Source: Acanthacorydalis orientalis
Taxonomy: Eukaryota; Arthropoda; Insecta; Megaloptera; Corydalidae
Assembly (NCBI GenBank): GCA_034766995.1
Contig: JAWJWD010000021.1
Location: 1 to 64,000 of the forward strand
Direction: 5' to 3'
Length of the DNA: 64,000 nucleotides
This document shows, in pieces, positions 1 through 60,985 of the stretch (positions are counted from its first letter, which is position 1; each line of letters opens with the position of its first letter). Under the pieces are notes generated by a model that saw only the letters and a program-made list of their open reading frames with translations, had not been told where the DNA came from and did not search any database. The position numbers and the translations under genes are program-made.

Positions 1-3000
1 CCAAAATAAATATAAAACTTGTAACACTGAACATAACGAGATAAGTTAATTCAAATCATTAACCAAAATAAAAACTTGTTTTTGTTCTGAAAGTAACATT
101 TTTAATAACAAAATTACAATGAAAATTATTATTTACAAAATTTTAGTGGTAAAGTCAACAATTTTAAAATGTATTTAAAACAACAATGTATAAAATTATC
201 TTTATGATCTATGTGGAGTAGATAAGATTTACTTTTCAGTGTAGTCATATTTTAAAACATTTTAGTATTTCATATTTATATGGAAAGTAACGTTTGAGAA
301 AAATTTTCATTTTACATGAATTGCTCTCTAATTTAATTAAATCTTGAATGAATTTTAGTTAATGAGAATACTAAATTACATTTTATTAAAATTTATATGA
401 ATTGAGTCAGATTTAGTTTGTTTTCATACATTTGCATTTGAAAACATTTAATTTTCACTTGAGTATTTCTTTTGAAGTCTCTTCATGTTGAATTATTGTT
501 TATTAATATTAATAAAATTGCATTAGAAAATGTCATTTGCAAAACAGTAATGAAATAGTAATACAATATAAATGCAAATTAAATAATGAACTTTGAAATG
601 AAGTTAACAGAGTAACATTTGTAACATAACAGTAAACATTATTGCACACTGTCGATTAAAACTATTCGATTTAATAGATTATATTTATAAAAAGACACTA
701 TTCATATACAGATAAAATAAATTGTAATTTTTATTAAACATTCTTTGAATATACATTTCTTTTGAAATCATTTAATCTTGAATTAGTTAAAGCAGTCAGT
801 TTTAAAAATGATACCAGTCTCATTTTAGAGACAAATTAATTTCAATTAATAAAAAAACAAATTACATTTTACTAAGTTTATATGAAGTCAAGTTTGTTTT
901 TTTTTAATACAAATGGATTTTATTTTTCTCTTGCATCTTTTAATGTCAAATCGTTTTTATTTCTATTAAGTAAAATTAATTCAAAAATGTCATTTACAAA
1001 GCAGTAATGAAAAAGTATTAGTATATAAATACATATTAAATACTAAATGTTAATTTTTAAGTAAATAACAGTAAACTTTATTGAAAAGATTCTTTTAAAA
1101 CTTTTCAATTTAGTAGTAATTATATATATAAAAACAAACTCTTCATCTAAATATTTAATAAAATGAATGTAGATCTCTCTTTTGGAAATTGGTTTTGTTC
1201 TAAATTAAGTGGAACTCTCTGAAATGAAACCAGACTAGTCTAATGACTATATCTCAGAATGATATGAATTACTAAGAAATTAAAATTACATTATTATTAC
1301 GTTTATATGAATGAAGTTGGAAGGTTCTTCTTTAAGCAGAATGCATTTGAGGAGAATTTTATGTTCACTCCAAATAAGTTTGCTTCATTTTAAAAAAATA
1401 TTTAATATTAATCAAATTACATTTGAAAATGTTATTTGCAAAACAAGTAATGAAAAAAGCAATAATATATAACAGAAATTAGATACAAAAATCTGATTAT
1501 TCATATAAATTTTTAATGAATGTAATATTTATAAAAATGTTGAAGAGACAGTATGTTTCTTTTCAGATTATTTTATCTTAACAGGGAAACACTAAATTCC
1601 AGAATTAATACTAGTCTATTATAACTTTATATGAATGAAATTCGAGTTCTTTTTAAACAAATGTATTTGAGAGCATTTTATTTTCATTCAAATAACTATT
1701 TCTTTATTTTCCAAATTCAATCATTTTGAAAAAAAAAATGTTTAATATTTTAATAATATTTTGCATTTGAAATGTCATTTTACAAAGCAGTAATAGAAAT
1801 TATTAGTATATAAATTCATATTGGATGCTGAATGTTACAATGTAAAGTAACATTACTAATATTACCATTTGATAAAATGTAATATTTATGAATGATTTCA
1901 AGAGCATATCTCTCGTTTGTTTCCAAATTTCTGAAATGAAACTAGTCTAATAATTAAGTCTAGAATGATATGAATTAACGCTAAACACCCATAGTCACTT
2001 TCATTTTTCGATAATATTTTTTATTAATATTAATAAAAAGTACATTTGAAAATATCACTTATAAAACAATAATGAAAAACAAATTAATACATAAATACAT
2101 ATTGAACAGACTTATAGAAAAAATTGAGAATATATATTTCTTTCGTGAATCATTTCATCTTAAATTAACTTTGAAATAAAAACATCTTGAATGAATTTAT
2201 ATGAATTAATGCAATTTCAATAAAATTTATATTTTATTAAAATTAATATAAAATCAATAGAGTTCTTACCAATACAAAAGCATTTGAAAGTATTTCTATT
2301 TTCATTAGATTATTTCTCTGTGATGTCCAATCGTGTCCGATTACTTTTTATTAATATCATAATAAAACTATGTTTTACAAATATCGTTTGCTTGAAGCGA
2401 TAATGAAAATATATAAATTTATATCGAATAATGAATATTCAAATTAAAAGTAATGAAATGACTTATCGTCATATGTGTTGGACAGAATCAATTTAAACTA
2501 TTAGATTCGATAGATCACATTTGTAAAAGAATTCGCTATTCCTATAAATATATAATGAATTGTAATGTTTATGAAACACTCTTCGAACATGTATTTGTTT
2601 TGAAATGATTTTATCTTTTAAGTCAGTTGTGAAATGATACTATTCTAATAACTTAATGAATTTTTAATTAATACATTTTATTGAGATTTGTGTAGAATGC
2701 AATCAAGTTGAGTTCTTTTGATACAAAAATGCATTTGAAAATATACTATTTTCACTAAAGTACCTCTTTTAAAATCCATTCATTTTGAATTATTTTTTAT
2801 AATATTAATAAAACTCCATTCAAAAATCTCATTTACAAATTATTAATGAGAAAGTACATACCGAAGACAAATATTCAAGCGAGCGTAATATTATTTATAC
2901 GAGTTGACTTTGCATATACAAAACCAGAACTATTTGATTGAATAGAAATTATATAAAAGAACTCACCATTCACATAAATGTATAATAAATTGTAATGTTT

Positions 3001-4197
3001 ATCTAACATTCTTCAAATATAGTTCTTCTGAAAGATGATTTAATATTAAAATTGTTGAAACTTAGCGCAGTTCTGAAACAATACAAGTTTAGAAATTAAA
3101 ACCATGAAATCTTTTTAATAAAAATTTCTCAGTGTGATGTAGTCTAGTAAAATATTTTTTTAATAATTACAATATTAAAATAATTACAAGTTTGAAAACA
3201 TGTCCAATAAGTGTGTACAATGAAATTTAGAATATTGATCTCTTAACTAGATAAATTATTTGTATGTACAAAATACTTTCCATATCAAATAATAAGGACT
3301 TGTGATGTTTTAAGAACCGGACGAGATTCCGTTTTAATCAATGTTATTTAAATCATCTAAGTATAATTATATGTAAATCAGTAACTTGATATAGTAGAGT
3401 TACAACGTTCCTAAAATTTGCTGTCAAATAGGAATAAAGACAAGCTTGATATTCATAGTGGAATTTTCATACGGCTTAAAGAATTTCATAAATAAAATTA
3501 AACGAACCTCTTTTTAACGTAAATGCTTTTAAAACAATTTGATTAATTATTTCATTTACACAAAATATATTTCTCAGTGTAATGTTAATGAAACATGTTT
3601 ACATGTAGAACAAATGTCCAAAACGCATATAACAAATTACTGAATATTACATTTTGCTACATTACGATATTAACGAATAACATTAAACAGAGTTTATAAT
3701 ATATTTCTACTATATATACGTTTACATTTTTATTATTAATTTAAATATTTTAAATCATAACTTATGATACTGTAATTTCGACAAGAAATACGACTAAGTG
3801 AAACACTCACAAGGATAATAATATACAAAATAATATGCACAAAATTCTCAACAGCAACAAACATTTAAATTGTAATCCACGCATATGTATAAACAAATCC
3901 TGTATATTGAACACTTATGTATATGGATGTATAAAAAAAAATAATTCAACAGGTCTTCGAGAAACGTCAACAAGCAGAAACATCACCGATAATCTGTGCC
4001 GGTATATATAATGTATTACTCGTACGTATCAATAAATATTCACTTTACATATTTTATATTAATTAAATATGCCGTAGATAAGGCATTTGCTCTAGTATAT
4101 AAGTAAGTTGCATGAAATAATAAATGTCTATCAAATATATTAAAAGTCTAGCACTTAATGTTTAACTTATATTTGTTGACATGTCAAATAATAGTAA
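1..4197 (+). repeat. Palindrome 1, left arm of diverged tandem repeats
   Basis: AT-rich, non-coding. A recurring block (AATATTAATAAAA, then a CATTTGAAAATGTCATTT-like stretch, then ACAGTAATGAAA) appears near 490-560, 960-1,030, 1,400-1,460, 1,740-1,800, 2,030-2,080, 2,340-2,410 and 2,790-2,860, so the arm is itself a degenerate tandem array with spacing of about 285-465 bp. Between these blocks comes a second recurrent stretch containing TTTATATGAAT and GTTCTTTTT. The innermost 700 bp is less obviously repeated. No open frame of note. Confidence 0.8.
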
Positions 4198-4208
4198 TAG
4201 GACAATTT

Positions 4209-4589
4209 ACCACCAAGTATATCTGTAACCAATTTCAAACCAGGTCACATATGTTTTGGTGATAATGCAATACCACCAAATGTATCTGCGACCGATTTGA
4301 AAATTTGGTCGCAGATATGTTTGGTGGATCGACAACCACCAAACATATCTGCGACCGATTTGAAAATTCGGTCGCAGATATGTTTGGTGGAACAACAACT
4401 ACCACCAAATATATCTGCGACCGATGTGAAAATTTGGTCGCAGATATGTTTGGTGGAACAGCTATCTACCACCAAACATATCTGCGACCAAATTTTCAAA
4501 TCGGTCGCAGATATGTTTGGTGGTATAGCCATTCCATCAAACATATCTGCGACCAAATTTTCAAATCGGTCGCAGATATATTTGGTGAT
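4209..4589. repeat. Central hairpin array of palindrome 1 (6 units)
   Basis: Six units start at 4,209, 4,272, 4,335, 4,401, 4,468 and 4,534 (period 63-67 bp). Each is an imperfect inverted repeat of about 56 bp: an arm like ACCACCAAACATATCTGCG, a 12-13 base interior, and the reverse-complement arm. The first unit is the most degenerate. The asymmetric interior reads GATTTGAAAATT in units 2-4 (unit 1 is a degenerate version) and its reverse complement AAATTTTCAAATC in units 5-6, so the array switches strand between 4,456 and 4,468. Overlapping open frames of about 100 codons here on both strands only reflect the repeat and are not genes. Confidence 0.92.
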
Positions 4590-4600
4590 ATTGCCCTACC

Positions 4601-7600
4601 ACTATTATTTGACATGTCAGCAAATATAAGTTAAACATTAAGTGTTAAACTTAATATATTTGATAGACATTATTATTTCATGCAACTTACCTATATACTA
4701 AGAGCAAATGCCTTATCCGGCATATTTAGTTAATATAAAATATGTAAAGTGAGTATTTATTGCGTACAAGTAATACATTACATATACTGGCACAGATTAT
4801 CTGGTGTTTCTGCTGTTGACGTTTCTCAGACTCCTTTTATACATATACATAAGTGTTCAATATACAGATTTTTTATACATATGGAATTACAATATTATGT
4901 TGGTTGCTGGTATCATAAGTTATATTTAAAATATTTATATTAATAATAAAAATGTAAGCAATATATATAGTAGAAATATATTATAAACTCTGTAATGTCA
5001 TTCGTTAATATCGTAATGTAGCAAATGTAATATTCAATAATTTGTTATACACATTTTGACATTTATTTTACATATAAACATGTTTCATTAACATTACACA
5101 GAAATATATTTGTGTAAAATGAAATAATCAAATTGTTTTAAAAGCATTTACGTTAAAAAGAGGTTCATTGAATTTTATTTATGTAATTCTTTAACCCGAT
5201 GAAAATTCCACTATGAATACGTTTGCCTTTTATTGAAAGCAAATTTTAGAGCGTTTTAACTCTACATCGTTACTGATTTACATATAATTATACTTAGATG
5301 ATTTAAATAACATTGATTAAAAGCAGGAATTGATCGGTCCTAAAACATCACAAGTCCTTATTTTGAGAATGAAAGTATTTGTACATACAAATAATTTATC
5401 TGAATTAAGAGATCAATATTCAAAATGTCATTGTATACACGACAGTTTTCAAACTTGTAATTATTTTAATATTGTAATTATTAAAAAAATATTTTACTAG
5501 ACTACATCACACACTGAGAAATTTTTATTAAAAAAGATTTCATGGTTTTAATTTCTAAACTTGTATTGTTTCAGAACTGCCAGTTTCAACAATTTTAATA
5601 TTAAATCATCTTCAGAAGAACCATATTTGAAGAATGTTAGATAAATATTACAATTTATTATACATTTATGTGAATGGTGAGTTCTTTTGTATAATTTCTA
5701 TTCAATCAAATAGTTCTGGTTTTGTATAGCAAAGTCAACTCATAAATAATATTACTTTCGTTTGAATATTTGTTTTTGGTATGTACTTTCTCATTACCAA
5801 TTTGTAAATGATGTTTTTGAATGGAGTTTTATTAATATAAAAGAATAATTCAAAATGAATGGATTTTAAAGAGGTACTTTAGTGAAAATAGTTTATTTTG
5901 AAATGCATTTTTGTATCAAAAAGAACTCAACTTGATTGCATTCACACAAATCTCAATAAAATGTATTAATTAAAATTCATTAAGTTATTAGAATAGTATC
6001 ATTTCACAACTGACTTAAAAGATAAAATCATTTCAAAATAAATATATGTTAGAAAGAGTGTTTCATAAACATTACAATTCATTATATATTTATAGGAATA
6101 GCTGAGTTCTTTTACAAATGTAATCTACTCCGAATCGAATAGTTTAAATCGATTCTGTGAAACACATATAAGAATGTCATTTCATTGATTTTAATTTGAA
6201 TATTCATTATTCGATACAGATTTATATATTTTCATTATCTCTTTGAAAACGTATTTGTAAACATAGTTTTATTAATATTAATAAAAATGTCGGACACAAT
6301 TGACATCAAGAGAAATAATCAAATGAAAATAGAATACTTTCAAATCGTTTGTATTGGAAAGAACTCTATTGATTTTTATATTAATTTTAATAAAATATAA
6401 TTTTATTAAAATTACACTAATTCATATAAATTCATTCAAGATGTTTTTATTTCAAAGTTAATTTAAGATAAAACACATTCATGAAAAAAATATATATTCT
6501 CAAATTTTTCATAAATCTGTTCAGTATATATTTATGTATTAATAGTTTTCATTACTGTTTTATAAATGACATTTTCAAATGTACTTTTATTAATATTAAT
6601 AAAAATATTATCCAAAATGAAAGGACTATGGTGTTTATTAATTCTTATCATTGTAGACTTAATTATTAGACTAGTTTCATTACAGAAATTTGGAACAAAC
6701 AAGAGGTATGCTTTTGAAATTATCAAATGTTTATGTGAATAGTTTGTTTTTTCATATTTAATCTCTGTTAAATCAAATAGTTTTAAAAGAATCTCTGCAA
6801 CAAAGTTTACTGTAATATAAGTAATGTTATTTTACATTGTAACATTCAGCATCCAATATGAATTTATATACTATCAATGTTTCATTACTACTTTGTAAAT
6901 GACATTTTCAAATGCAATCTTATTAAAATATTAAACATTTTTTTTTTCAAAATGATTGAATTTGAAAATAAAGAAAAGTTATTTGAATGAAAATAAAATG
7001 CTCTCAAATACATTTGTTTAAAAAAGAACTCGACTTCATTCATATAAAGTTATAATTAGACTAGTATTAATTCTGAATTTAGTGTTTCTGTTACGATAAA
7101 ATATTCTGAAAAGAAACATACTGTCAACATTTTTTATAAATATTACATTCATTAAAAATTTATATGAATAATCAGATTTTTGTATCTAATTTCTGTTATA
7201 TATTAATGCTTTTTCATTACTGTTTTGCAAATGACATTTTCAAATGTAATTTGATTAATATTAAATATTTTTAAAAAAATGACATAATACTTATTTGAGT
7301 GAACATAAAATTCTCTCAAATGCATTTGCTAAAGAAGAACTCAACTTCATTCATATAAACTTAATAGTAATGTAATTTAATTTTAGTAATTCATATCATT
7401 GAGATATGGTCATTAGACTAATCTGGTTTTCATTTCAGAGAGTTCCAATTAATTTAGAACAAAACCATCTCAAAGAGATCTGTTTTTGAAATCATTCATA
7501 AATATTCATTTTATTAACTATTTATATGAAGAGTTTGTTTTTATATATATAATTACTGCTAAATTGTTTTTTCAATAAAGTTTACTGTTATTTACTTAAA

Positions 7601-8673
7601 AATTTAACATTTAGTATTTGATATGTATTTATATACTAATACTTTTCAGTACTACTTTGTGACATTTTTTGAATTCATTTTAATTAATAGTAATAAAAAT
7701 GATTTAAAATTAAAAAGATGCAAGAGAAAATAAAATCATTTGTATTAAAAAAACAAACGACTTCATATAAACTTATTAAAATGTAATTTATTGTTTTTAT
7801 TAATTAAAATTAATTTATCTCTAAAGTGAGACTGGTATCCTTTTAAAACTGACTGCTTTAACTAATTCAAGATTAAATGATTTCAAAAGAAATGTATGTT
7901 CAAGAATGTTTCATAAAAATTACAATTTATTATATCTGTATATGAATAGTGTCTTTTTTTATAAATGTAATCTATTCAATCTAATAGTTTTTAATCGATT
8001 GTGTGCAATAATGTTTACTGTTATGTTACATATGTTACTTTAACATCATTTCAAAGTTCATTATTTAATTTGCATTTTATATAGTATTACTATTTCATTA
8101 CTGTTTGCAAATGACATTTTCTAATGCAATTTTTTAATATTAATAAACAATAATTCAACATGAAGAGACTTCAAAAGAAATACTCAAGTGAAAATTAAAT
8201 GTTTTCAAATGCAAATGTATAAAACAAACTAAATCTGACTCAGGTCATATAAATTTTAATAAAATGTAATTTAGTATTCTCATTAACTAAAATTCATTCC
8301 AAGATTTAATTAAATTAGAGAGCAATTCATGTAAAATGAAAATTGAAGCGTTAAGCGTTAAGCGTTACTACTTACTCAAAGCGTTACTTTCCATATAAAT
8401 ATGAAATACCAAAATGTTTTAAAATATGATTACACTGAGAAGTAAATTTTATCTACTCCACATAGATCGTAATGATAATTTTATATATTGTTGTTTTAAA
8501 TACATTTTAAAATTGTTGACTTTACCACTAACATTTTGTAAATAATAATTTTCATTGTAATTTTGTTATTAAAAATGTTACTTTCAGAACAAAAACAAGT
8601 TTTTATTTTGGTTAATGATTTGAATGAACTTATCTTGCTATATTCAATGTTACAAGTTTTATATTTATTTTGG
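4601..8673 (-). repeat. Palindrome 1, right arm
   Basis: Reverse complement of 1-4,197, with the same degenerate repeat blocks (for example around 6,560-6,600, 6,890-6,930, 7,210-7,260 and 8,095-8,150). It is about 120 bp shorter than the left arm because of scattered indels. Open frames at 4,749-4,943, 6,481-6,669 and 6,532-6,726 have no recognisable protein features and are not conserved as frames in the left arm. Confidence 0.9.
8345..8372. repeat. GCGTTAA minisatellite private to the right arm
   Basis: Three copies of a GCGTTAA-like heptamer followed by a fourth GCGTTAC about 16 bp later. The mirror position in the left arm (around 290-310) has only a plain GTTTGAGAAA-type sequence, so this is a local expansion after the arms separated. 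Confidence 0.7.
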
Positions 8674-11639: not shown

Positions 11640-12030
11640 ACTTATCAAAGGCTGGCTCCAGCCACCTTTGACTTCTAATGATGTATCTTTAGGGGCTCAC
11701 ATCAAGTTTATTCGCAAGAACGAGAGTCAACGTATCGTTCTGAATCCGATGCGGTGACAAATCTGCTGAAGATATTCACAAACAAGCAGACAGTATAACA
11801 GTATGAATCTTATGTATTGTACACAAACAAAATAATAAACATATTTTATTGTTTTTACATCAGTAGACCATTCATAGTCGTTGAATTAATGTTTAACGGG
11901 CCATTTGGCGAAAACAATGTCAAGAAAAAACTCCAATCGATTGATAATGACTTGCGTGATTTTCAGACAGATGGTGTGTAGGCACCTCGCTACATTATAG
12001 AAACGATGGTGGACGGTTGGACTCGCATTC
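11640..12030 (-). repeat. Satellite component A, copy 1 (just outside palindrome 2)
   Basis: Begins with the near-palindrome GGCTGGCTCCAGCC and includes a polyadenylation-like AATAAACATATTTTATTG stretch and CGATGGTGGACGGTTGG. Related copies lie at 15,300-15,670, 17,870-18,200 and 63,480-63,715 in the opposite orientation and at 57,060-57,420 in this orientation. Compared with the others this copy has about 100 bp of extra sequence after GATGTA (about 11,685-11,790). A minus-strand peptide (RKNILYL followed by HSP-SLI) is partly shared between copies but is broken by frameshifts, so it could be an old coding scrap or chance. Confidence 0.75.
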
Positions 12031-13850
12031 ATACATACACACGTACACGCACAATACAGATGTTTTTGCATTTTTTTGCGGATCCTAAGTGAAGGCCTCG
12101 GACAATTATAATTACGCGATAAAAGTTAACGCCGACGCTCATAAACGTCTAGAAATGGCGAATGATATTCCCGTCTTTGATTGGTTTTAGGGCCTCTGTG
12201 CCCGGCCCTGTACATGTGAGCGAGGAAGCGACGTCGGTTCGAAGGTCCGACGGATGTGCAATATCACATCGCGTCGAAAAAATTTTCGATTTGTAATTTT
12301 TCTATTTCCAAATTTTCTCTCGGGCCTGGTACACCGGGCCTGTGCGAACCGCACACCGGCACTAGTATACAGTCCGTGTAGACGTCTAGAATCATGTGTC
12401 ACCGTCGAAATAAGCGATTTCCAAAGGAAAACGCCCGCCGAGCACGTTAATACCTTATGCGCCTCCACCATCATATCGTTGCGCCTCCACCATCATCTCC
12501 ATAAACAAGCATCGAAAAATGCTCTGATTTGCGAAATTGCAAATTTTGAACTTCGACTTTTCGATGTTTTTCAGCGGATCAGGAGCGGACGGATCCGGCG
12601 CACCTAGTTTCCGCATTTGGAAGCAAATTTAACGGTGGGAAGTGTGCGAAAAATGCGAAAATAGGCGAATTTTCGGACCCGCAAACTCTTTCAGGCGCCA
12701 TTACTCCGGTGTTAGGCGTGCTATCGAGAAACCGAAAGCTATTCGTGCTTCAGACGGACGTCTAGTTTCCATCCGCGTGGAAAAATTGCAGATTTGCGAA
12801 AAAATTTCGCGTTCGAAAATCGTGATCAAAGGTAGGGGTACGTGAATTTGAGAAATTTTTCGAGTTTTTGGCGCATCGCAAGCGGGGCGATCCGTAGATA
12901 TACGTCCTGGTGTTTAAAAGTGAAATCGGAACCTAGAAGGTATTTAAATCGGCCCGCGAAGTGGTCGGGTCACAAATTTTCGGAGCATATTGCTCCGACC
13001 CTGTACCTTAATTGACATACCGACACCGATCCAGTGTTCAAATGGGCGTGTAGTATCGCATCGCACAACAAAAATTGCCGATTTGCGAAATTACCGCATT
13101 TTCAATGACGTCAGAGCGAAATTGCAGGCGCAATTATTCGGAACTATGCATGCTACCAATGAACTGGAACGAGTTCGGATATTCAACGGACATCTAGTAT
13201 CGCTTTGCAGCACAAAAACTATCATTTTGCAAAAAAAATTTGCAAATAATTTTTTCACTTTCTTCGCAATTTTTCATCGCATCAGAAGCGGGTCGGTTTG
13301 TAGATACACGTACTAGTGTTTAAAGTGACACCGGCCTCTAAAATTTATTAGAACCGGCCTGCAAAGTGGGCCAATCTGATAATTCGGGCCCTATTTCTCC
13401 GACCCTGTACGCTAAATTGACAAAGTGACACCGGTTCAGTATTCAAATAGACGTCTAGTATCGCATCGCACAACAAAAATGGTCGATTTACGAAAATTTC
13501 ACATTTCCAATGACGTCAGTGCGAAATTGCAAACGCGATTGTTCCGGCACCGCACGCGATACCGATGTACTGAAACCGATTCAGAGTATGGGTGTCTAGT
13601 ATCGCTTCGCAATGCAAAAACTGTCCATAGATATCCGTTTCGTCTATTAAGTTTATTGCCGATACTTAAATGTGTTAGAAACGGTGTCAGAAGCGATCAG
13701 CGACCGCCTGTAATACAGGCGTGGGCCCGTTTGCCGGCCCTGAACGCGCAGATAGATAACCAACGCCAGTTCGCAGTTCCACTAGGCCCGTACATTCGCT
13801 TTGTACCGCCAGATTCATCGATTTGCAAGACTCAAACAATTTGAAAAAAA
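12030..13850 (+). repeat. Outer left arm, higher-order unit 1
   Basis: Starts with an ATACAGATGTTTTTGCA stretch and GAAGGCCTCGGAC, then blocks recurring in every unit: ACATGTGAGCGAGGAAGCG, GTAGACGTCTAGAATC, CGCCTCCACCAT, GGAAGCAAATTTAACGGTGG, GGGGCGATCCGTAGATA and others. Within the unit a shorter theme (GACGTCTAGTATCGCATCGC plus CAAAAA and a CGATTTGCGAAA-like tail) repeats every 140-370 bp. Small open frames at 12,254-12,607, 12,990-13,316 and 13,425-13,844 are conserved only as DNA repeats, not as proteins. Confidence 0.85.
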
Positions 13851-13854
13851 CATA

Positions 13855-15260: not shown

Positions 15261-15297
<37 letters not shown>

Positions 15298-16200: not shown

Positions 16201-16204
16201 AATT

Positions 16205-18400: not shown

Positions 18401-18404
18401 ACAT

Positions 18405-19856
<1,452 letters not shown>

Positions 19857-43833: not shown

Positions 43834-43929
43834 TTCGTATCTATCTAGTAATCTTATCCATGTTATTTATAAGTATTTACTGCAAGTTCATGTATAGTCG
43901 TATTCTAAAATAACATAACATATAACAAA

Positions 43930-44010: not shown

Positions 44011-44131
44011 ATTTTCTTATTAATTTATTGTGATTAGGAATGTATAAAGCCTAACGATACAGTATAAATTATAAGTGAAAAACTTTGCGATCGGTCTCGG
44101 GTAATCGCGTTTCGTACAAAAATATCTACAC

Positions 44132-44258
44132 CGTTTCGGTTACTTACGGCACCGCACCGTCCGTTTTCGTCACTCGCATAGTTTCATTTACTTACGATAA
44201 CCACACGGTCAGTTTAAGTTACTTACGACATATGCTCAGTTTCGGTTACTTACGATAT
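44132..44258 (-). repeat. CGTAAGTAACCGAAAC minisatellite, right copy
   Basis: One unit fewer than the left array; the rest corresponds unit by unit. Confidence 0.8.
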
Positions 44259-48100: not shown

Positions 48101-48380
48101 TTAGTTTTAATGAATCGTTAAAATAGAATCATTTAAATAGATGATTCATTGTCAATGCTATTAAATTTTTGCTCTTATAGAAAAAGTGATGTTGCAATCA
48201 ATACCTTATTATTCGAATATAGCACTTTTTAACCAAATATATAGAAATATTTGGGTTAACAATAATAAATTATTATAATTAATAACTAAAACTATAAATA
48301 AGTTTCTTTGTTCTGGTTTCTGGTTGTAACTCCTGTCGTCCGCACTGGAAACAAACTGAACAGCTATCACCCTCTCATGT
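45170..48380 (-). repeat. AT-rich degenerate tandem tract, inner right arm
   Basis: Mirror of 24,640-27,850, non-coding. Differs mainly by a short TA/TTAGTTA expansion at about 45,465-45,510. Confidence 0.65.
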
Positions 48381-49022
48381 TGGCAAATCTTTATAGTCCT
48401 ATTTAATTTCTAGAAATTCTTCATCTTCTGACACCTGAAAACATTTTTATATTCTTTATATAACACATTCATTAATACTTTAAAACAAAATATATAAATA
48501 CAATTTGCAATATTTCATGCATACAACCTATTTCAGTCACTCACTTTCAACTATAAAAAAATTACCAAAAAAGAAAAGAAAATATGAATGGGATGTGTTT
48601 TTACTGCAAAAATTTATAAGTATTTGGTTGTATGAAAATTTAACTTTAAATATATATATATATTACAAAAACAAATAAACAGCAAAAGACTGATATATTG
48701 ATACAAAATATAACAATGGATATGAATGAAACATTTTAAAAAACTATTTTCAATCTAATAATTAGGTATGTTTAGTAAGAGAAAAGATAATTTCAACTTA
48801 AAAAATTGATAGAATTGGTGAAAAACTGATTTCAATCATTTACACCCTTAATAAATTTCATTACTAACGTATAAAAAGGAAACTTAAGTTTATTATAAAA
48901 AGAGCATTTAAAAGTAGAACTTACAATATTTTTATATAATGAAGAATAGAATGATGGAATCACAATTTTAATTTTAAAATAAACAAAAACGAAACATTTA
49001 AAATTTAATTATATATGACTTG

Positions 49023-49069
<47 letters not shown>

Positions 49070-49557
49070 ATATGATCAAATATTGAAAAAGAAACTGAAT
49101 AAAATAAAAAATTACAAATTAAGCACCAAAATCAGTAAATTAATTTAAGATTATCATGAAAATCTATTTCAAATTAAAATTCATCGAATATTAATTAAAT
49201 GCAAAAAGAATAAAAACTGGTAAAACAATATTAAAGAAAGTAAACAATTACAATTTAAAAAAAATAATTGTAAAGTTAAACAAATATGCATAATTAATTA
49301 ATGAAAAATAACTAAACGGTTCTTTTTCTTATCAAATCATTTGGTGCTTAAATAATTTATGCAAATAGATTCAACTATTAACAGGCAAAATGTTTAAGAA
49401 AAAAATCAAAGAAAAATACATAAAACATAAAAATTTATTAGTTAATATTCTTAAGTTTTTTAATTATTACTTTATAATTATTAAAAGTATATTTATATTT
49501 CAATTTTATGCTACATATTTATTTTGTATTAATTAGATTTTTAAATGAAATGCTTAC

Positions 49558-49633
49558 TTTTAAAATGAAGACTGGATAGAAGATTGCCTTGTTCTATACA
49601 AGCACCAAAACAACATAATTTAGTAATCCCCAT
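49558..49633 (-). other. Exon-like block with ATG and splice donor, right copy
   Basis: Identical mirror of 23,392-23,467 on the minus strand, with the donor GTAAGC following at 49,557. Confidence 0.18.
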
Positions 49634-50314
49634 GTTCAGCATCCGAAATTTGATCTAACATACTCTTCATACGATGCTAAAACTAATAATTTAGTACCTA
49701 GAACAGAATATTTTTACTACAAAAGTTTATATATGTATATTCAAAAATAGTATTTTATATTTTAACTTTTTTCCTTAACATTTTTAACTTCCCGTCATAC
49801 ATAATCCGTAGTAAAGATATACATTTCAGTGCTATGTATTCACGATCTTTATGAGAAACCGGATCCATTTGGTATCAAAAGCATCTGAAACTTTATGATT
49901 TTTTTAACCACACTGTAATTAATGAATCGAGTATATTTTTTCTTACTTTTTTATGTCATTATTACATAATATTTAATATCCACATCGGTCTGGCGATCTT
50001 CCAAATTCGTTTTAAAGTAAAGAGTAGTGTAATAAAATGATTTTAAGATTTAATGAATCGTACGAACTTTTAATATTATGTTCGTGTTAAATATCCGATG
50101 CAGAATGTTAAACATTTATCATTTTACAAAATATATTGTTATAACAGTATCCTCTGATTACACATACGACGTGCAGTGTAATCAATAACTAGAACCATGG
50201 TTCAAATAGTGTGGTTCAGTGGTAGTGTGGTTCATGTTGAGTCAACCACAATGTTTGCTGTTTGGTGAAACATTTTCAGAATAAACCCTACCCCAGTAAC
50301 AAAATGTTAAAAAA

Positions 50315-50497
50315 ATGAATTTAAAACTACAAGCAAAGCAAAGTACGAAGCATCCGAGTAACACCCGTGTAGGATTACAGGCCCGGGGATACCCCAGCCA
50401 CTCTCGACCAGCGCTCTGCACTTCTCAACCGAATGTACGTTTTCGTGATGTCATCGAAGAATGTGGATGCGGTTCTCGAAGAAACCTGAAACCCTAG
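50315..50497 (+). other. 60-codon open frame, right copy
   Basis: Identical mirror of 22,528-22,710. Begins MNLKLQAKQSTKH, basic, with a Cys-Gly pair near the end; no recognised domain. The surrounding GC-richer block extends from about 50,295 to 50,775. Confidence 0.2.
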
Positions 50498-51425
50498 TCA
50501 AAAACCTAAGCTATAAAAAAAAAACGAGAGATCTCTCATAAAAACCCTACTCTAAAGTCTAATCTAAAGCACAAGTGAGAAGCGAGACAAAGTCTCATAA
50601 AATAAAGGTCAGGGAAAACAACACAAAAACCCTGAAAAAAAGGACAAAACAAACAGACTGCCTCGCACCTCCAGGTTTGAAGACTTCTCGATGGCGAAAA
50701 CGTAGACGGTTATAGTTAGCAAAGGGTGCGATCGCTTAAGTACTACCTAGAGGTGAAACCAAAATATCCTGTACCCTTAACGCAGTCCCAGTTTAACGTT
50801 TATTAGACATCTGGTTCGTACTCACGGACAATCTTAAAATGAATTTGAAGAATTCACTAAAAGATTTTTATGAATTTACAGTTAAAGTGATCGGGCGATC
50901 ACGATACAAAACCCCGAGGCACTTACATTTACAATACTGAAAACTAATTTTATGATCTTTCTCGATCACGATGTTTTAACGTTGCTTCAGTGCTTCTAAC
51001 GTGTTATGTTAGAAATATATATATCGTTATACGACGAATCTTCAAATCGACTTCAGTAATCAGAAGAACATATATAACAAATTAAAATTTTAAAAAAATG
51101 TATTTTAAAATAATGAAAAAAACAATTTATCAAATTTAATTTTATGTAAATTAAACAAAACTACTCTATACTTAAATATTCATCCATGATAGTAAAAATT
51201 CTAAGAAAAAAATAAACAATGTACAATAACTCTAAAAATTGTTAATATTGAAAAATGTAAAATTATTTTGAAAATTTGTTAAAAAATAGTTAAATGTTTT
51301 TAATTTAGTTAGATTTAAACATATATTTAAAAATTTCAATCGAAAAACTACAATTACTTACAATTAAATACGACTGTAGGAAAATTCTTGAACAGTGTAT
51401 TGGACGGACGGCGTTCGATACAGAA

Positions 51426-51596
51426 ATGAGTCGCGCAAGCCGTGCAATGGTCAGTGAAGGCCAGTCGATTCGTGACGCAGCTACGAGTGAATTATATAAA
51501 ATGCTGACACGGTGCTGTTACAATGCTTCCATAAGATTTTCAAAACTAGATCAAATGAAACCGATTTATTTAATGGAAAAAATATATTTAAAATAA
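51426..51596 (+). CDS. Short conserved-in-both-arms frame, right copy, hypothetical
   Basis: Mirror of 21,429-21,599; ATG at 51,426, TAA at 51,594-51,596, 56 codons, within an open frame that starts after a TAG at 51,306. A possible AG acceptor (GACTGTAG) lies at about 51,371-51,378. Downstream at about 52,206-52,310 is another exon-like block on the same strand, so the two could belong to one transcript running outwards from the palindrome centre. No family recognised. Confidence 0.2.
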   Translation: MSRASRAMVSEGQSIRDAATSELYKMLTRCCYNASIRFSKLDQMKPIYLMEKIYLK

Positions 51597-51714
51597 TAAC
51601 GATTTTATGTTTTCATGATTTATCCATTGTCCAATATAATGAAAACTGGATATTTGTACAAAAAAAATACACCAAATATTAATTTTAAAATTATATCTCT
51701 CATAATTAATGCCT

Positions 51715-51733
51715 CTCTCTCTCTCTATCTATC

Positions 51734-51828
<95 letters not shown>

Positions 51829-51855
51829 CATATATATATATATAATATATATATG
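51715..51855. repeat. (TA)n with TCTA/CTCT head, right copy
   Basis: Mirror of 21,165-21,300, slightly shorter. Confidence 0.95.
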
Positions 51856-52205
51856 TGACGTTTGCGATTGTCGATTGTTAAAAATGGCCATTATTATCTG
51901 CAACAAAACAGTCAAATCCTCCTTGTTAAAATCAATATTACCATGGCTAAATTAATAGTAAAAAATTGAAAATGTTCTAAAAAAGTGGACGAAATTTCGA
52001 ATTAGATTGTGGAATACAAGCTAGTGGGATTTTTAAAAAAATTGTGAATATTTTATAACTTTTAAGGTACAGCAGTATCATTTTATATTCTTAGTCTTAT
52101 GTATAAATATTTATTTATAATAATTTTCTGTCGAATGATTCTAATTTGATATTATTAATTTTCAGAAACAAATAAAAAATTACATTACTAAAAATCAATA
52201 AATAA

Positions 52206-52310
52206 ACTGTGTATGATCCTGCCACCAGTATTCTTGCTTGTCATACAAGACGACCAAAAGGAGCTCGGTTCCAAATTACCAAGGGAACGATGTATGCTAC
52301 TGCTGCAATT
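52206..52310 (+). other. Exon-like block with splice donor, right copy
   Basis: Open from a stop at 52,203 to the donor GTGAGTACT at 52,311; encodes TVYDPATSILACHTRRP and then KGARFQITKG. Composition is clearly less AT-rich than the flanks. No pyrimidine tract or AG just upstream, which weakens the exon reading. Mirror at about 20,714-20,819. Confidence 0.18.
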
Positions 52311-52667
52311 GTGAGTACTCAGTATTTTCTTTAAAATACATTAATTTCTATTTTTTATTGATTAAATGTTTTTCCTAACAATGTATTGATTTTTAATCTC
52401 GTAATATAGCAATAAAATAATAATGTCCATTCTTTATATACTTTATTATTAACTATACATAGAGTATTTTCTTAAATCTAAGATAGATGCGTACGGCCAT
52501 CTCTATGAAAAACTGAAATATATTTTTTCCTGTGTTTGAAACGTCAGTATGAAATTAGTTTTCGTATAAGTTGGAATATAAACTAAAAAAAAATTAGTAC
52601 TTTCTCTTAGTCAGATGGTAAATAAATTTTTTTTCTTTAAGTATTTAGTTTAGAAATTACATAAATA

Positions 52668-52680
52668 GCAACAGATGGCG
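52668..52680 (+). promoter_or_regulatory. CTCF-like motif, right copy
   Basis: GCAACAGATGGCG, mirror of 20,337-20,351; partial match to the CTCF consensus. Confidence 0.2.
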
Positions 52681-52937
52681 TAACTAGCTCGATTTTGAAT
52701 TTAAAATGTATAAATGAAAACGCAGGCAGATTTAATATACAAATATTTAATATATAAGGAATACTACTTTGTTAGCATTTAGCTTGTAAAAAAGATGTAT
52801 ATATATATATACACAAACATGTATATTAATATTATTTATTAGTTTTGACGATCCACCGCTTTTATTTGAAATTATTTCAAACTGAACCATCAAATACCTC
52901 TTGTTTTATTTATAAATATTTTTAAAAATGACAATAA

Positions 52938-52982
<45 letters not shown>

Positions 52983-53148
52983 ATATATTAATATTGTTAC
53001 AACCAAAGCATATTTCATTTGCAGTCAAAGTTAAAAATATAAAGCATTCAATATTATGAGTTCCCTGAAACATTACATGTATAAATAGAAATGGAAGAAA
53101 CTATAATGATGTTCTAAATAATAAATACTTCTAGACAATAAAATATAA

Positions 53149-53154
<6 letters not shown>

Positions 53155-53198
<44 letters not shown>

Positions 53199-54622
53199 GT
53201 TGCTATTTAAATGTTGAGTATGTTAAATGCAATTCATTGATTGAATAAATTTTTAGTCATATATAGTGAATTATAAAGTGTATTAATAATCTATTTTTTA
53301 TTTATATATCAGTTTCGAATTTATAATATATTAGTAGTTATCAATATATTTGACTTCCTACATTGGTATAATATTATATATCAGTATTACAATGAAAGAA
53401 ATGCTTACAATGAGCTAAAAACTATAAAAATTAGACGTTATAAAAATTCACACGTTTAAATACAGTCATTTTATGTCTTAAGAACTGTATTTCAGTTATT
53501 ACAAAGACTGATTAATAGAAATGTTAATAAAATATAAATAAACACAAAAGAAATGAGCATTGAGTACATTTATGAAAACATTTGCTGACTAATATTCTTC
53601 AAACTGAATTGAACATTATATTAACTAGAAGTATGAATAAATTTGATTACATTTTCCTGTTTTATACTCTAAACCTTATACTGTTTCCCATTTATCTTTT
53701 AAAACTTCTTGCTTCATAAATTTAATATACGATAGTGTTGTAGACAAATTAACTTTACTTATTTTTCAAATATTTTCCATATACACTCAATTTTCATAGA
53801 ATAAGCAATGAAAACAAATATATGCAGTTATAGTTTGCTTTCATATGCATAAAATTAATAATTCCATGTATGAAAAAACATGCCTTCAAAAAAACATCAT
53901 ATAGATAGTGGTTTAGTTTTGAAATTTATTTCATTTCTATAATATAAATTAATATTACTAGAATTTATGAAGACTTTCGATTTCTGTATATATTTATTGC
54001 TTCCCTAACAGTACTGAATAAGTACGTACAGAAATTATTTTAAAAAGGCTTACAAAATGATAAAAATTGCAGATAATAATTGAAATCATGTATGCTGAAC
54101 AAAAAGGTTGTTGGTAAACTAATAATTATATATGTGTTTTATATCAACTTTAAAAGGCTTAACTAAAAGAATTCCTATTTCAGAATGAATGTTATTGCAT
54201 TTTTTCATGAATTTATTTATGAAAAATAATATTTTAACTAATTTTCTAATTCTTTTTCAAACAATTAGTGAAACTTTGAAAGTAAATACTAGTGTTCCCT
54301 GTAATAGGTTTATTTCTATGCTAAATGTCACTCATCATCACAATGAGTTTATTTTCTTTTCTAAAAGAATGCAGCACATGTACTAAAAATGATTAAAATT
54401 TGTGGTTGTTAGGAAATTTATGCGATTTTTTAGATTTGCATAAAAATCCGTGTGAGATATAATATCATATACTAACATGATATCTGCAGTATTTAAAATA
54501 TGTGTTGGAAAGAACGGAACAAGCCATAATATAATTCTATAACGTCAACTTGATGCAAATTAAATATTAAAGATATTTTGATTATGATGTACATATGTAT
54601 ATGTATATATATGTATATATTG
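53155..54622. other. Right-arm-only AT-rich segment (about 1.4 kb) bracketed by TA tracts
   Basis: Between a TA tract at 53,155-53,195 and a TATG/TA tract at 54,590-54,622 lies DNA with no partner in the left arm, which has a single TA tract there. No terminal inverted repeats or target duplications other than TA are visible. A 65-codon open frame at 54,189-54,386 has no recognisable features. Confidence 0.8.
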
Positions 54623-56510
54623 TGAGAAATGTATAAGAGAAACAGTAATATGCACAATATTAGAAATAAAATGTTGAGTGAAATGATTATCTACAGAGTC
54701 AGTCCGGCGCACGATGATGAAATAAACTGCTGACCGACGAAATTGCACGGTCGTACGTACGCATGCCGTATTTGTGCCAAACGGTACATTTTTATTCAGG
54801 TAAAATTACTTGTACGTGGGCCTACGGACCAGCTCGCTTCCGATACGGGGAGAAAATTGCCAAAAACGTGAAGAAATTATTTTCGCAATAATTTATATTT
54901 TGTAAATTGACAGTTTTTTTCATTGCGAAGCGATACTAGACATCCATTTAAACTCTGAATCAGTTTCGGTACATTGGTAATGCGTGCGGTGCCGGAATAA
55001 TTACGTCTGCAATTACGCACTGACGTCACTGGAAATGTGAAATTTTGCGTAAATCTACCATTTTTGTTGTGCGATGCGATACTAGACGTCTATTTGAATA
55101 CTGAACCGGTGTCGCTTTGTCAATTTAGCGTACAGGGTCGGAGAAATAGGGCCCGAATTTTGTGACTGGCCCAATTTGCAGGCCGATTCAAATACATTTT
55201 AGAGGCCGGTGTCACTTTTAAACACAAGTACGTGGGTCTACAAACCGACTCGCTTCCGATGCAATGAAAAAATGGCAAAGAAAAGGAAAAATTTTTTTTT
55301 GCAAAATTTTATTTTTTGCAAATCGATAGTTTTTGTACTGCAAAGCGATACAAGACGTCCGTCGGAACTCCGAACAGGTTCCAGTTCATCGGTAGCATGT
55401 GTGGTTCCCCAGAAATCGCGTCTGCAAATTCGCTGTGACGTCACTGAAAATGTGGAAATTTCGCAAATCGACAATTTTTGTTGCGCGATGCGATAGGGAA
55501 CGTCCATTTGAACCCTGAATCGTTGTCAGTTTGTCAATTAAGCGTACAGGGCCGGAACAATACGGTCCGAAAATTTGTGGCCCGGCCACTTCGAGGGCCG
55601 ATTCAAATACCTTCTACGTTCCGATTTCACTTTTAAACGCCAGGACGTGTATCTACGGACCGCCCCGCTTGCGAATCGCGAAAAAACTCGAAAAAATTTT
55701 TCTCAAATTCACGTACCCCTACCTTTGATCACGATTTTCGGACGCGAATTTTTTTCGCAAATCGGCTATTTTTTCGCCGCAGATGCAAACTGGACGTCCG
55801 TCTGAACTATGAATAGTTTGCGGTTTTTCGATAGCACGCGTAACATCGGAGCAATGGCGTCTGAAATGTTCCGCGGGTCCGAAAATTCGCATTTTTTCGC
55901 ATTTTTCGCACACTTCCCACCGTTGAATTTGCTTCCAAACGCGGAAACTAGGTGCGCCGGACCCGTCCGCTCCCGATGCGCCGAAAAAAACATCGAAAAG
56001 TCGATGTGCAGAAATTTGCAATTTCGCAAGTCAGAAGTCAGGGCGTGGCATTTTTCGATATTTGTCCGTAGATTTGATGGTGGAGGCGCATAAAGTATTA
56101 ATGTGCCCAGCGGGCATTTTCCTTTCGGAAATCGCTTGTTTCGACGGTGTCATATGATTCTTGACGTCTACACGGACTGTATGTCAGGGTCGGTGTGCGG
56201 CCCGCACAGGCCCGGTGCAGCAGGCCCGAGAAAATTTGTAAATAGATGAAAAAATTGTAAATCGGAAACTTTTTCGACGCGATGCGATATTAGACATCCG
56301 TCAGAGCTTCGAACCGACGTCGCTTCCTCGCTCATATGTACAGGGACGGCGCAGATGCCCGAAAACCAATCGAAGACGGGAATTTCATTCGTCATTTCTA
56401 GACGTTTATGGGGATCGGTGTTAACTTTTATCACGTAATTATAAATTTCCGAGGCCTTCTCACTTCCAATCCGCCAAAAAAATTGCGAAAAACATTTGCA
56501 TTACACGTGT
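54620..56510 (-). repeat. Outer right arm, unit 3 mirror
   Basis: Reverse complement of 16,205-17,265 joined to the equivalent of 18,758-19,755; lacks the left-only 1.5 kb and the short internal duplication of left unit 3. About 90-95% alike to the left arm. TGACGTCA at about 55,023 and 55,438. Confidence 0.85.
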
Positions 56511-57441
56511 AGGTGTGTATGTTTTTTCCAAATTGTTTGAATCTTGAAAATGGATGAATCTGGCAGTACAGAGCGAATGAATATGTCTAGTGGAACTGCG
56601 GACCGGTGTCGGTTATTCGGTCGCGCGTGCAGGGCCGGAACAACGGCCCGAAGCACAAGCTATCGTTGATCGCTTCTAATATCGTTTCAAGCACATTTAA
56701 ACAACCAAAAATTTAACATACGTATGTTTAAGGAATATCACGCTTGCGATGCGCCGAAAAATTTGCGAAAAAAAAAACAAGAATTTTTTTTATTAAATTG
56801 TTTTTTTAGCCAAAATTATTTTTGAAAGCGACGACGATTTTGGCTGTGTAGGACGATAGCGGCTATCAATCACTACAGTGGATTAGTGGCGTCCCGCGCT
56901 TCAACACACAGGGCCGGGACGGCGGCCCGAAAACCAGTTAGGAGCTGTTTGCTTTGATCGTAGTTTTGTGACACTTTTAGGCGCTAGGGCAGAGTTCCAA
57001 CGATGAATCGCAATTGTACGAGTAGGCACGTTTTCGATTCCAACAAAAATATCGCAATAAACAATTAGTACATCATAGGCTGGCTCCAGCCATCTCTGTC
57101 GTCTAATGATGTAGCAGTATGAATCAATCTTATGTATTGTACACAAATAAATAATAAACATATTTTATTGTTTTTACATTAGTAGACCGTTCATAGTCGT
57201 CGAGTTAATGTTTAACGGTCCATTTGGCAAAGCAATGTCAAGAAAAAACTTAAATCGATCGTTAATGACCAGCGTGATTTTCAGACCGCTGCTGTAGGCA
57301 CCCTGGTACATTATAGAAACTATGGTGGACGGTTGGCTTCGTGTTGTCGCAAAAATATTTTATATCTAGCTCTCCACTCTCCTCACAGTCTCATTAAACT
57401 GCGACAGTTTATAAATGAATACACGAGTGCAAAATGTCATC

Positions 57442-57494
<53 letters not shown>

Positions 57495-59105
57495 TTTTAA
57501 ATTGACAGTTTTTGCATTGCGAAGCGTTACTAGATATCCATTTAAATTCTGAATCGGTTTTAGAAAATCGGTAACGCGTGCGGTACAGGAACAATCGGGT
57601 CTGTAATTTCGCACTGACGTCACTGGAGATGTGAAATTATCGTAAATCGACCATTTTTGTTGTGCGATGTGATACTAGACCTCTATTTGAATACTGAACC
57701 GGTATCACTTTGTCAATTGAGCGTACAGGGTCGGAGAAATAGGGCCCGAATTTTGTGACTGGCTCACATTGCAGGCCGATTCAAATACACTTTTTAGAGG
57801 TCGGTGTCACTTTTAAACATTAGTACGTGGGTCTACAAACCGAGCCGCTTCCGATGCGATAAAAAAATTGCTAAGAAAGCGAAAAAAATTTTTTTTTGCA
57901 AAATATTTTTTTTTGCAAATCGATAGTTTTTGTGCTGCAAAGCGATACTAGACGTCCGTTGAATCTCCAAACTCGTTCCAGTTCATCGTTAGCATACGTG
58001 GTTCCCGAGCAATCGCATCTGCAAATTCGCTGTGACGTCACTGAAAATGTGGTACTTTCGCAAATCGGCAATTTTTGTTGTGCGATGCGAAACTAGACGT
58101 CCATTTGAACACTGAATCGGTATCGGTTTGTCAATTAGCCGTACAGGGCCGGAGTAATATGGTCCGAAAATTTGCGACTCGCCCACTTCGGGGGCCGATT
58201 CAAATACCTTCTACGTTCCGATTTCACTTTTAAACGCCAGGACGTATATCTACGGACCGCCCCGCATGCGATGCGCCAAAAAACTCGAAAAAAATTTCCT
58301 CAAATTCACATATCCCTACCTTTGATCACGATTTTGGAACGCGAATTTTTTTTCGCAAATCTAGAATTTTTTCGACGCAGATACAAACTAGACGTCCGTC
58401 TGAACTACGAATAGTTTTCGGTTTCTCGATAGCACGCGTAACGCCGGAGTTACAACGTCTGAAAGAGTTTGCGGGTCCGCAAAATCGTCTTTTTTCGCAT
58501 TTTTCGCACACTTCCCACCGTTAAATTTGCTTCCAAATGCGGAAACTAGGTGCGCCGGATCCGTCCGCTCCCGATCCGCTGAAAAAAACATCGAAAAGTC
58601 GAAGTGCAAAAATTTGCAATTTCGCGAGTCAGAAGTTAGGGCGTGGCATTTCTCGATGTTTGTCCGTAGATTTGATGGTGGAGGCGCATAATGTATTATG
58701 TGCTCGGCGGGTGTTTTCCTTTTGGAAATCGCTTGTTTCGACGGTGTCACATGATTGTACACGTCTACATGGACTGTACGGAAGTGTCGGTGAGTGGCCC
58801 GCACAGGCCCGGTGCAGCAGGCCCGAGAAATTTTGTAAATAAACGTAAAAATTGTAAATCGGTGATTTTTTCGATGCGGTGCGATATTAGACGTCCGTTG
58901 GATCTTCGAACCGACGTCGCTTCATCGCTCACATGTACAGGGCCGGCACAGAGGCCCGAAAACCAATCGAAGACGGGAATTTCATTCGTCATTTCTAGAC
59001 GTTTATGGGCGTCGGCGTTAACTTTTATCACGTAATTATAAATGTACGAGGCCTTCTCACTTCCAATCCGCCAAAAAAATTGCTAAAAACATTTGTATTA
59101 TGCGT
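56510..59105 (-). repeat. Outer right arm, unit 2 mirror
   Basis: Reverse complement of 13,855-16,200, including component A (57,060-57,420), a TA tract (57,445-57,490) longer than its left partner, and TGACGTCA at about 57,615 and 58,032. Confidence 0.85.
57060..57420 (-). repeat. Satellite component A, copy 4
   Basis: Same strand as copy 1 (11,640-12,030), without that copy's 100-bp insertion. Begins with GGCTGGCTCCAGCC. Confidence 0.8.
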
Positions 59106-60985
59106 GTGGGTGTGTATGTGTGTATGTTTTTTTCAAATTGTTTGAGTCTTGCAAATCGATGAATCTGGCGGTACAGAGCGAATGTACGGGCCTAGTGGAA
59201 CTGCGAACTGGCGTTGGTTATCTATCTGCGCGTTCAGGGCCGGCAAAACGGCCCCACGCCTGTATTACAGGCGGTCGCTGATCGCTTCTGACGCCGTTTC
59301 TAACACATTTAAGTATCGGCAATAAACTTAATAGACGAAACGGATATCTATGGACAGTTTTTGCATTGCGAAGCGATACTAGATACCCATTTAAACTCTG
59401 AATCGGTTTCAGTACATCGGTATCGCGTGCGGTGCCGGAACAATCGCGTTTGCAATTTCGCACTGACGTCACTGGAAATGTAAAATTCCGCATAAATCGA
59501 CCATTTTTGTTGTGTGATACGATACTAGACGTCTATTTGAATACTGAACCGGTATCACTTTGTCGTCAATTTAGCGTACAGGGTCGGAGAAATAGGGCCC
59601 GAATTTTCAGATTGGCCCACTTTGCAGGCCGGTTTGAATACATTTTAGAGGCCGGTGTCACTTTTAAACACTAGTACGTCTGTCTACAAACCGACCCGCT
59701 TCCGATGCGATGAAAAAATTGCAAAGAAAGTGAAAAAAAAATATTTGCAAAATATTTCTTTCTGCAAATCGATAGTTTTTGTGATGCAAAGCGATACTAG
59801 ACGTCCGTTGAATATCCGAACTCGTTCCAGTTCATCGGTAGCATGCATAGTTCCGGAATAATCGCGTCTGCAAATTCGCTCTGACGTCACTGAAAATGTG
59901 GTAATTTCGCAATTCGGCAATTTTTGTTGTGCGATGCGACACTAGACGTCCATTTGAACACTGAATCGGTGTCGGTTTGTCAATTAGCCGTACAGGGCCG
60001 GAGTAATATGGTCCGAAAATTTGCGACCCGCCCACTTCGGGGGCCGATTCAAATACCTTCTACGTTCCGATTTCACTTTTAAACGCCAGGACGTGTATCT
60101 ACGGACCGCCCCGCTTGCGATGCGCCAAAAAACTCGAAAAATTTTTTCTCAAATTCACGTATCCCTACCTATGATCATGATTTTGGAACGCGAATTTTTT
60201 TTCGCAAATCTGCAATTTTTTCGACGCGGATGGAAACTAGACGTCCGTCTGAACTACGAATAGTTTTCGGTTTCTCGATAGCACGCGTAACGCCGGAGTT
60301 ACAGCGTCTGAAAGAGTTTGCGGGTCCGCAAAATCGTCTTTTTTCGCATTTTTCGCACACTTCCCACCGTTAAATTTGCTTCCAAATGCGAAAACTAGGT
60401 GCGCCGTATCCGTCCGCTCCCGATCCGCTGAAAAAAACATCGAAAAGTCGAAGTTGAAAAATTTGCAATTTCGCAAATCAGAGCATTTTTCGATGCTTGT
60501 TTATGGAGATGATGGTGGAGGCGCAACGATATGATGGTGGAGGCGCACAATGTATTAACATGCTCGGCGGGCGTTTTCCTTTTGGAAATCGCTTGTTTCG
60601 ACGGTGTCACACGATTCTAGACGTCTACACGGACTGTATACCAGTGCCGGTGTGCGGCCCGCACAGGCCCGGTGTACCAGGCCCGAGAAAATTTGGAAAT
60701 AGAAAAAATTACAAATCGAAAATTTTTTCGACGCGATGCGATATTGCACATCCGTCGGACCTTCGAACCGACGTCGCTTCCTCGCTCACATGTACAGGGC
60801 CGGCACAGAGGCCGTAAAACCAATCGAAGACGGGAATATCATTCGTCATTTCTAGACGTTTATGAGAGTCGGCGTTAACTTTTATCGCGTAATTATAATT
60901 GTCCGAGGCCTTCCCACTTAGGATCCGCAAAAAAAAAATGCAAAAAAACATTTGTATTGTGCGTGTACGTCTGTATGTATGTATG
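59105..60985 (-). repeat. Outer right arm, unit 1 mirror
   Basis: Reverse complement of 12,030-13,850, with a GATGATGGTGGAGGCGCA block repeated twice at 60,508-60,548, as in the left arm (about 12,464-12,495). Homology with the left arm ends at about 60,985. Confidence 0.85.

Follow-up and report, generated by a model that had tools for sequence, protein, structure and literature searches.

Two palindromes lying within 64,000 nucleotides of the Acanthacorydalis orientalis genome (contig JAWJWD010000021.1, positions 1 to 64,000; hereafter, the window) share one layout: inverted arms, a centre made of a hairpin array, a strand switch that falls within or beside a hairpin, and an axis placed off-centre. 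We propose, giving the idea an even chance, that hairpin-seeded inverted duplication, followed by array turnover and gene conversion, explains both. The evidence comes from the sequence of this single assembled window, in which self-BLAST provided the arm pairs of both palindromes. A previous sequence-only reading had described two giant palindromes with long inverted arms and no obvious sequence in common; self-BLAST confirmed the arms, and when the two palindromes were compared by BLAST with the dust filter on, no match was returned at E values up to 1e-3.

That reading had also recognized hairpin arrays at both centres. We scanned the window for hairpins with arms of at least 18 bp, at most two mismatches, a loop of up to 16 and at least five G/C per arm; the last rule drops TA microsatellites, and overlapping hits were collapsed to the longest. 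The scan yielded 19 rows, and every one lay in a palindrome centre, with 3 belonging to palindrome 1 and 16 to palindrome 2; the controls, just two shuffles made in 1-kb blocks, gave 0 and 0 rows. The 16 rows of palindrome 2 correspond to 14 units, including two end hairpins, with three rows being pieces of one unit.

Core array and axis of palindrome 2

Palindrome 2 spans positions 12026-60985, with arms of ~17 kb around a 13.5 kb core. Taking as anchors the matches to a 46-bp repeat with up to 3 substitutions, we located 186 monomers in 10 blocks to the left of the axis and 58 in 3 blocks to the right. Hairpin units of ~200 bp separate the blocks (198, 210 and 222 bp in 4, 7 and 1 of 12 units, respectively); their halves, compared without gaps, differ by 1 to 5 mismatches in 11 of the 12 units and by 10 in the unit at 38430. 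One array unit (30057-30254), folded in silico as single-stranded DNA, formed a single stem at -124 kcal/mol, and none of 200 shuffles folded as well.

The junctions of these units locate the mirror line. In all nine hairpin units of the left array, GCACGCCGTG stands before the unit and T(C/A)ACGACG after it, and both units of the right array carry the reversed junction pair. The single axis unit is flanked on both sides by an identical 20 bases in mirror image; therefore, the strand switch lies inside a hairpin unit. The axis thus falls on an inverted repeat whose two flanks are alike, as expected of a foldback inversion, and the satellite array switches strand at a hairpin-capable site, as in satellite macro-dyad symmetries. 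The axis (40028.5) is displaced 3.52 kb to the right of the arm midpoint (36505) because the core arrays are unequal in length: half of their length difference is 3.62 kb, about equal to the shift. The off-centre axis that had been reported for both palindromes is, in this one, a consequence of array length.

Alternatively, the symmetry might belong to the satellite and not to a process that makes palindromes. The core of palindrome 2 would then be a hairpin-spacered satellite whose array was flipped by recombination between hairpins inside an older inverted repeat, and palindrome 1 would be unrelated. We regard this explanation as rather unlikely. In its favour, arrays of Tribolium madens mostly comprise a pair of subarrays in opposite orientation, and hairpins are predicted where the orientation changes (PMC13081366); the palindrome 2 core, for its part, has duplicated higher-order blocks and variants that differ between sides. 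Nevertheless, ~17 kb outside the 46-bp satellite is also mirrored on either side, and no satellite of the 46-bp type was seen in palindrome 1.

The most frequent monomer is the consensus, both to the left (78/176) and to the right (32/55) of the axis. Among 14 recurrent non-consensus variants, 3 are present in both arrays, 9 in the left array only and 2 in the right array only. Within the left core array, the region 32017-38430 contains a higher-order block of ~3.1 kb in about two copies. Additionally, a 28-bp hairpin, GTAGAGCGGTTAGGTATAAACGCTCTAC, occurs without mismatch three times to the left of the core array, at 29185, 29367 and 29482 (+), and three times to its right, at 43405, 43520 and 43805 (-). 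A 29-base piece of the 46-bp repeat had 0 exact matches in viral contigs and 0 in prokaryote genome contigs, in searches from which records of the genome under study may be missing.

Divergence between the arms of palindrome 2

The divergence of the palindrome 2 arms is mosaic. The inner arm pair (19810-29338/43679-53195) is 99.15% identical, and at 20791-26790 there are 0 substitutions in 5994 aligned bases, with one 6-bp TA length change; the stretch without any difference measures ~6.3 kb. Differences climb toward the core (15/875 in the last bin, plus a 106-base gap) and outward (11/986 in the first bin, 8 of them in the TA repeat 19792-19809). The outer arm pairs are 94.6% (14646-16985/55751-58136) and 93.8% (12026-14645/58316-60985) identical. 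Over four colinear segments, the outer arms differ by 278/6573 substitutions (4.2%), with 0.4% to 15.6% per bin, and the region 12026-16975 alone has 177/4935. These segments are 91-96% identical, and non-colinear repeat copies reach at most 90% among the matches listed. Assuming a constant rate and independent sites, the chance of finding 6.2 kb free of substitutions would be ~3e-97 at the 177/4935 rate and ~4e-33 at the least-diverged outer rate (36/2989). Palindrome 2 therefore contains tracts of near-identity within more diverged arms, as gene-converting palindromes do, and this mosaic suggests gene conversion in part of its arm.

The sequence-only reading had proposed arms built of tandem repeats in both palindromes. 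This description applies to the outer arms of palindrome 2, which consist of tandem units of ~1.8-2.6 kb of a GC-richer repeat, and weakly to palindrome 1, but not to the inner ~9.5 kb of the palindrome 2 arm, where self-BLAST found no direct repeat of at least 150 bp and where there are TA microsatellites plus short, weak repeats. On our reading of the self-BLAST, the left outer arm appears to carry one more repeat unit than the right. The 53196-54582 segment, which is extra to the right arm, sits at a TA microsatellite and may be an insertion on the right or a deletion on the left.

An artefact of library or assembly, be it a read that folded back or a head-to-head fusion of two haplotypes at a self-complementary hairpin, seems to us an improbable source of these structures. 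Palindromic and foldback reads are a known artefact in the parts of the literature considered here (PMC6218980, PMC12870357). However, mirroring by one folded read would be exact across the axis, whereas the arrays on its two sides have different lengths and variants. A single recent fold-back, like a single folded read, would leave the arms alike throughout, so the mosaic counts against both. The divergence of the palindrome 2 outer arms and that of palindrome 1 likewise count against an artefact. A head-to-head haplotype join is less easily dismissed for palindrome 2: its low-difference inner arms and its differences in microsatellite and array length would also suit alleles, and its flanks have in common, in the mirrored sense, 111 bp (89%), so the mirror may continue past an insertion. 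This segment is part of the dispersed repeat of the outer arms and lies 2.6 kb further out on the right. Against an artefact, the inner arms from 19850 to 29665 have no single-base indel between them, and the flanks (only 3.0 kb on the right within the window) otherwise match only over 93 bp, with 72% identity and in the non-mirrored sense, and in short AT-rich hits that are mostly TA repeats.

Palindrome 1

Palindrome 1 has arms of ~4.3 kb. The 8.7 kb previously assigned to it agrees with the mirrored extent, 1 to 8673, but its left end is the window edge, so neither size nor boundary is fixed. The arm pairs 1-1865/6812-8673 and 1895-3770/4910-6720 are 89.6% and 90.2% identical, respectively, and overall divergence amounts to 7.5% substitutions (272/3607). 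The alignment worsens toward the centre (87/442 at 3771-4270). Its repeat structure is weak, with a 2.5-kb stretch that matches itself at lag 487 with 61% identity.

In the predicted fold of the centre, unit 4 pairs with unit 5 and unit 2 with unit 6, which none of 100 shuffles equalled; unit 3 forms an extra hairpin and unit 1 has no partner. Therefore, the strand switch is located between units 4 and 5, in agreement with the sequence-only reading, which had placed the switches between or inside hairpin units. The axis thus stands between two mutually pairing hairpin units, a looser form of the arrangement found in palindrome 2. At 4462.5, it is shifted rightward from the arm midpoints (4307 to 4380). 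The two partnerless units on the left push the axis in the same direction; the agreement concerns direction only.

Outer ends and flanks

Using a query taken from the right arm, we mapped the strand of the outer-arm dispersed repeat in 100-base bins. On the left side, the repeat is on the plus strand at 11.8-12.0 kb and on the minus strand at 12.0-19.6 kb (gap at 15.7-16.0); on the right side, it is on the plus strand at 54.8-61.0 kb (gap at 56.7-57.1) and on the minus strand at 62.1-63.8 kb. The repeat thus flips strand at both outer ends of palindrome 2. This pattern speaks against the edge of a transposon; more probably, the ends were closed inside repeated DNA, or further layers follow.

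The ends bear on the comparison with foldback (FB) and Galileo elements drawn in the sequence-only reading. Giant transposons of this kind are, in our judgement, a very improbable explanation. FB/Galileo elements have a target-site duplication at their outer ends, and their autonomous copies carry a transposase of the P-element superfamily. The likeness consists in long inverted repeats with internal tandem repeats, although the known elements are generally smaller. The boundary comparison suggested in that reading gave no target-site duplication of at least 4 bp within 10 bp of 12026 and 60985, ends that are blurred by repeat DNA; when 300 pairs of positions were drawn at random from the outer arms, 225 had a direct repeat of at least 4 bp by chance. 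Both ends also lie in the strand-changing repeat. Our Pfam scan covered all 15 frames of at least 120 codons, leaving out shorter or spliced frames, and the only one above the cut-off was of the mariner type, in keeping with a eukaryotic source, and outside the palindromes. None of the other 14 frames passed, so no transposase was found inside either palindrome among frames of this length, although the palindromes could be non-autonomous copies. The inner arms and core of palindrome 2 contain no frame of at least 120 codons, and the scan recognized no gene in its arms. Two frames in the palindrome 1 hairpins gave three weak, below-cut-off matches to unrelated families. The FB/Galileo plan was therefore not sustained.

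On the far side of palindrome 2, positions 63847-63881 match the outer part of a palindrome 1 arm over 35 bp. The comparison of 63830-64000 with palindrome 1 scored 50, against a control maximum of 43 in 290 comparisons, but the segment was picked post hoc and the match is only 35 bp long. The control consisted of 145 overlapping segments, forward and reversed, chosen without segments that had TA runs or a GC content outside 12-32%. We treat this possible likeness as a lead.

Four segments of palindrome 2 (outer left, inner left, core and outer right) have CpG observed/expected ratios of 1.52-1.81. The ratio is lower in palindrome 1 (0.83), in the stretch separating the two palindromes (1.11), in the flank at 60986-62290 (1.31) and, most of all, in the extra 1.39-kb piece of the right arm (0.56). 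Such a CpG profile is reminiscent of Hymenoptera. An Rfam scan of the whole window gave 0 matches at gathering scores, and five telomere-type repeat patterns tried on it gave none. The features are collected in Table 1.

Table 1. Features of the two palindromes and the adjacent flank (window coordinates)
Feature	Positions	Strand	Remarks
Palindrome 1 left arm	1..4207	+	AT-rich, degenerate repeats, lag ~487; reaches window edge
Palindrome 1 centre	4208..4595	.	Six ~56-bp hairpin units, first degenerate; strand switch ~4457-4468
Palindrome 1 right arm	4596..8673	-	From self-BLAST and arm alignment
Palindrome 2 outer left arm	12026..19791	+	Tandem units of GC-richer dispersed repeat
Palindrome 2 inner left arm	19810..29338	+	AT-rich; matches right arm without difference ~21249 to 27525
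Palindrome 2 left core array	29548..39923	+	46-bp monomers, 10 blocks, 9 internal hairpin units, end hairpin
Palindrome 2 axis hairpin unit	39924..40133	.	Array strand changes here; near-perfect palindrome 39887-40170, 137-bp arms, 10-bp loop
Palindrome 2 right core array	40134..43301	-	46-bp monomers, 3 blocks, 2 internal hairpin units, end hairpin
Palindrome 2 inner right arm	43679..53195	-	From self-BLAST and arm alignment
Extra segment of right arm	53196..54582	.	AT-rich, ~1.39 kb, bounded by TA-rich stretches; nothing corresponding at this place in left arm
Palindrome 2 outer right arm	54583..60985	-	From self-BLAST and dispersed-repeat strand map
Mariner-type transposase fragment	61289..61819	-	Pfam Transposase_1, DDE_3; nearest PDB sequences Mos1; flank of palindrome 2

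Proposed origin

In the mechanism that we propose, resection of a DNA end would reach a self-complementary unit or its vicinity; the end would then fold back on that unit and prime synthesis on its own strand. Replication of the hairpin-capped product would give a mirror image with the hairpin as its axis, and the far ends of the duplication would be closed within repeated DNA. Later, the number of hairpin and satellite units would change independently on each side, so that the axis no longer coincided with the arm midpoint. Inter-arm gene conversion would also have re-homogenized 6 kb or more of the inner arm in palindrome 2. Priming by foldback predicts a self-complementary axis, equal flanks and, possibly, closure in repeats, all of which are seen in palindrome 2, and the first, loosely, in palindrome 1. 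A hairpin-driven process that makes palindromes in this genome is plausible and fits the junctions.

Several points weigh against this proposal. There are only two cases, which do not prove a process common to both palindromes, and the idea was formed on the same data. Hairpins make up ~20% of the palindrome 2 core. The hairpins of palindrome 1 could postdate the axis, having grown at an existing one. Just 3 of the 14 monomer variants are common to both arrays of palindrome 2, which appears to leave array homology across the axis unsupported. Additionally, the bins 12526-13525 and 16646-17637 of the outer arms are diverged by 6-16%, some being no closer than other repeat copies.

A broader version, which we hold to be doubtful, is that hairpin arrays are recurrent seeds of giant palindromes here, possibly nested, with 12-61 kb perhaps forming the inner layer of a larger mirror that may have palindrome 1-like DNA on both sides. 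Nesting is considered because the outer-arm repeat flips strand again at both ends and because of the 35-bp match to palindrome 1.

Comparison with known systems

Large palindromes are normally unstable, and to our knowledge, their origin in the germ line has mostly been inferred from yeast and tumours. If our proposal is true, a natural pair of palindromes, differing in sequence and in arm divergence, shows hairpin-seeded duplication at work in evolution. Palindrome 2 would then let the hairpin of the axis, the turnover of the arrays and the gene conversion between the arms be read at a single locus. Should further hairpin arrays of this genome lie at axes as well, the hairpin-seeding idea becomes countable.

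In Saccharomyces cerevisiae, inverted duplications arise via a foldback or hairpin at a break near inverted repeats and are stabilized by secondary events, including repeat-mediated ones (PMC10622511, PMC7467729). The hairpin intermediate that we propose is shown there, and closure likewise occurs partly via repeats or homology. In contrast, the yeast cases are experimental, from repair-defective strains or induced breaks, and the parts of these reports considered here do not mention hairpin arrays or later satellite turnover.

Mammalian sex-chromosome palindromes have arms kept alike by gene conversion (PMC3723533, PMC8981503), and in part of palindrome 2, arm identity likewise exceeds 99.9% over kilobases. 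They differ in that a hairpin-array centre is not mentioned in the portions considered of these sources, while the identity of palindrome 2 is patchy and its arms gave no recognizable gene in the Pfam scan of frames of at least 120 codons. Work on bee palindromes and gene conversion, on palindrome formation at short inverted repeats, on foldbacks in whole-genome amplification and on Hymenoptera satellites with palindromes described no such structure in the sections available.

The satellite macro-dyad symmetries of T. madens are arrays that switch strand at hairpin-capable sites (PMC13081366). As in palindrome 2, opposed satellite subarrays extend over kilobases to tens of kb with varying subarray lengths, and for one satellite, hairpin stems of 58 and 98 bp are predicted at the inversion sites (PMC13081366). 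The Tribolium arrays, as far as the consulted text of that report goes, are multi-megabase, putatively (peri)centromeric and present on all chromosomes, whereas the 46-bp repeat of palindrome 2 forms a single array, 13.5 kb long and with the hairpin as a spacer throughout, inside ~17 kb arms of other DNA. Among the systems compared, these symmetries and the yeast foldback inversions would be the closest in print. The present structures differ from both in that a satellite core spaced by hairpins is combined with long arms of other DNA, and in that two sequence-unrelated cases occur within 64 kb.

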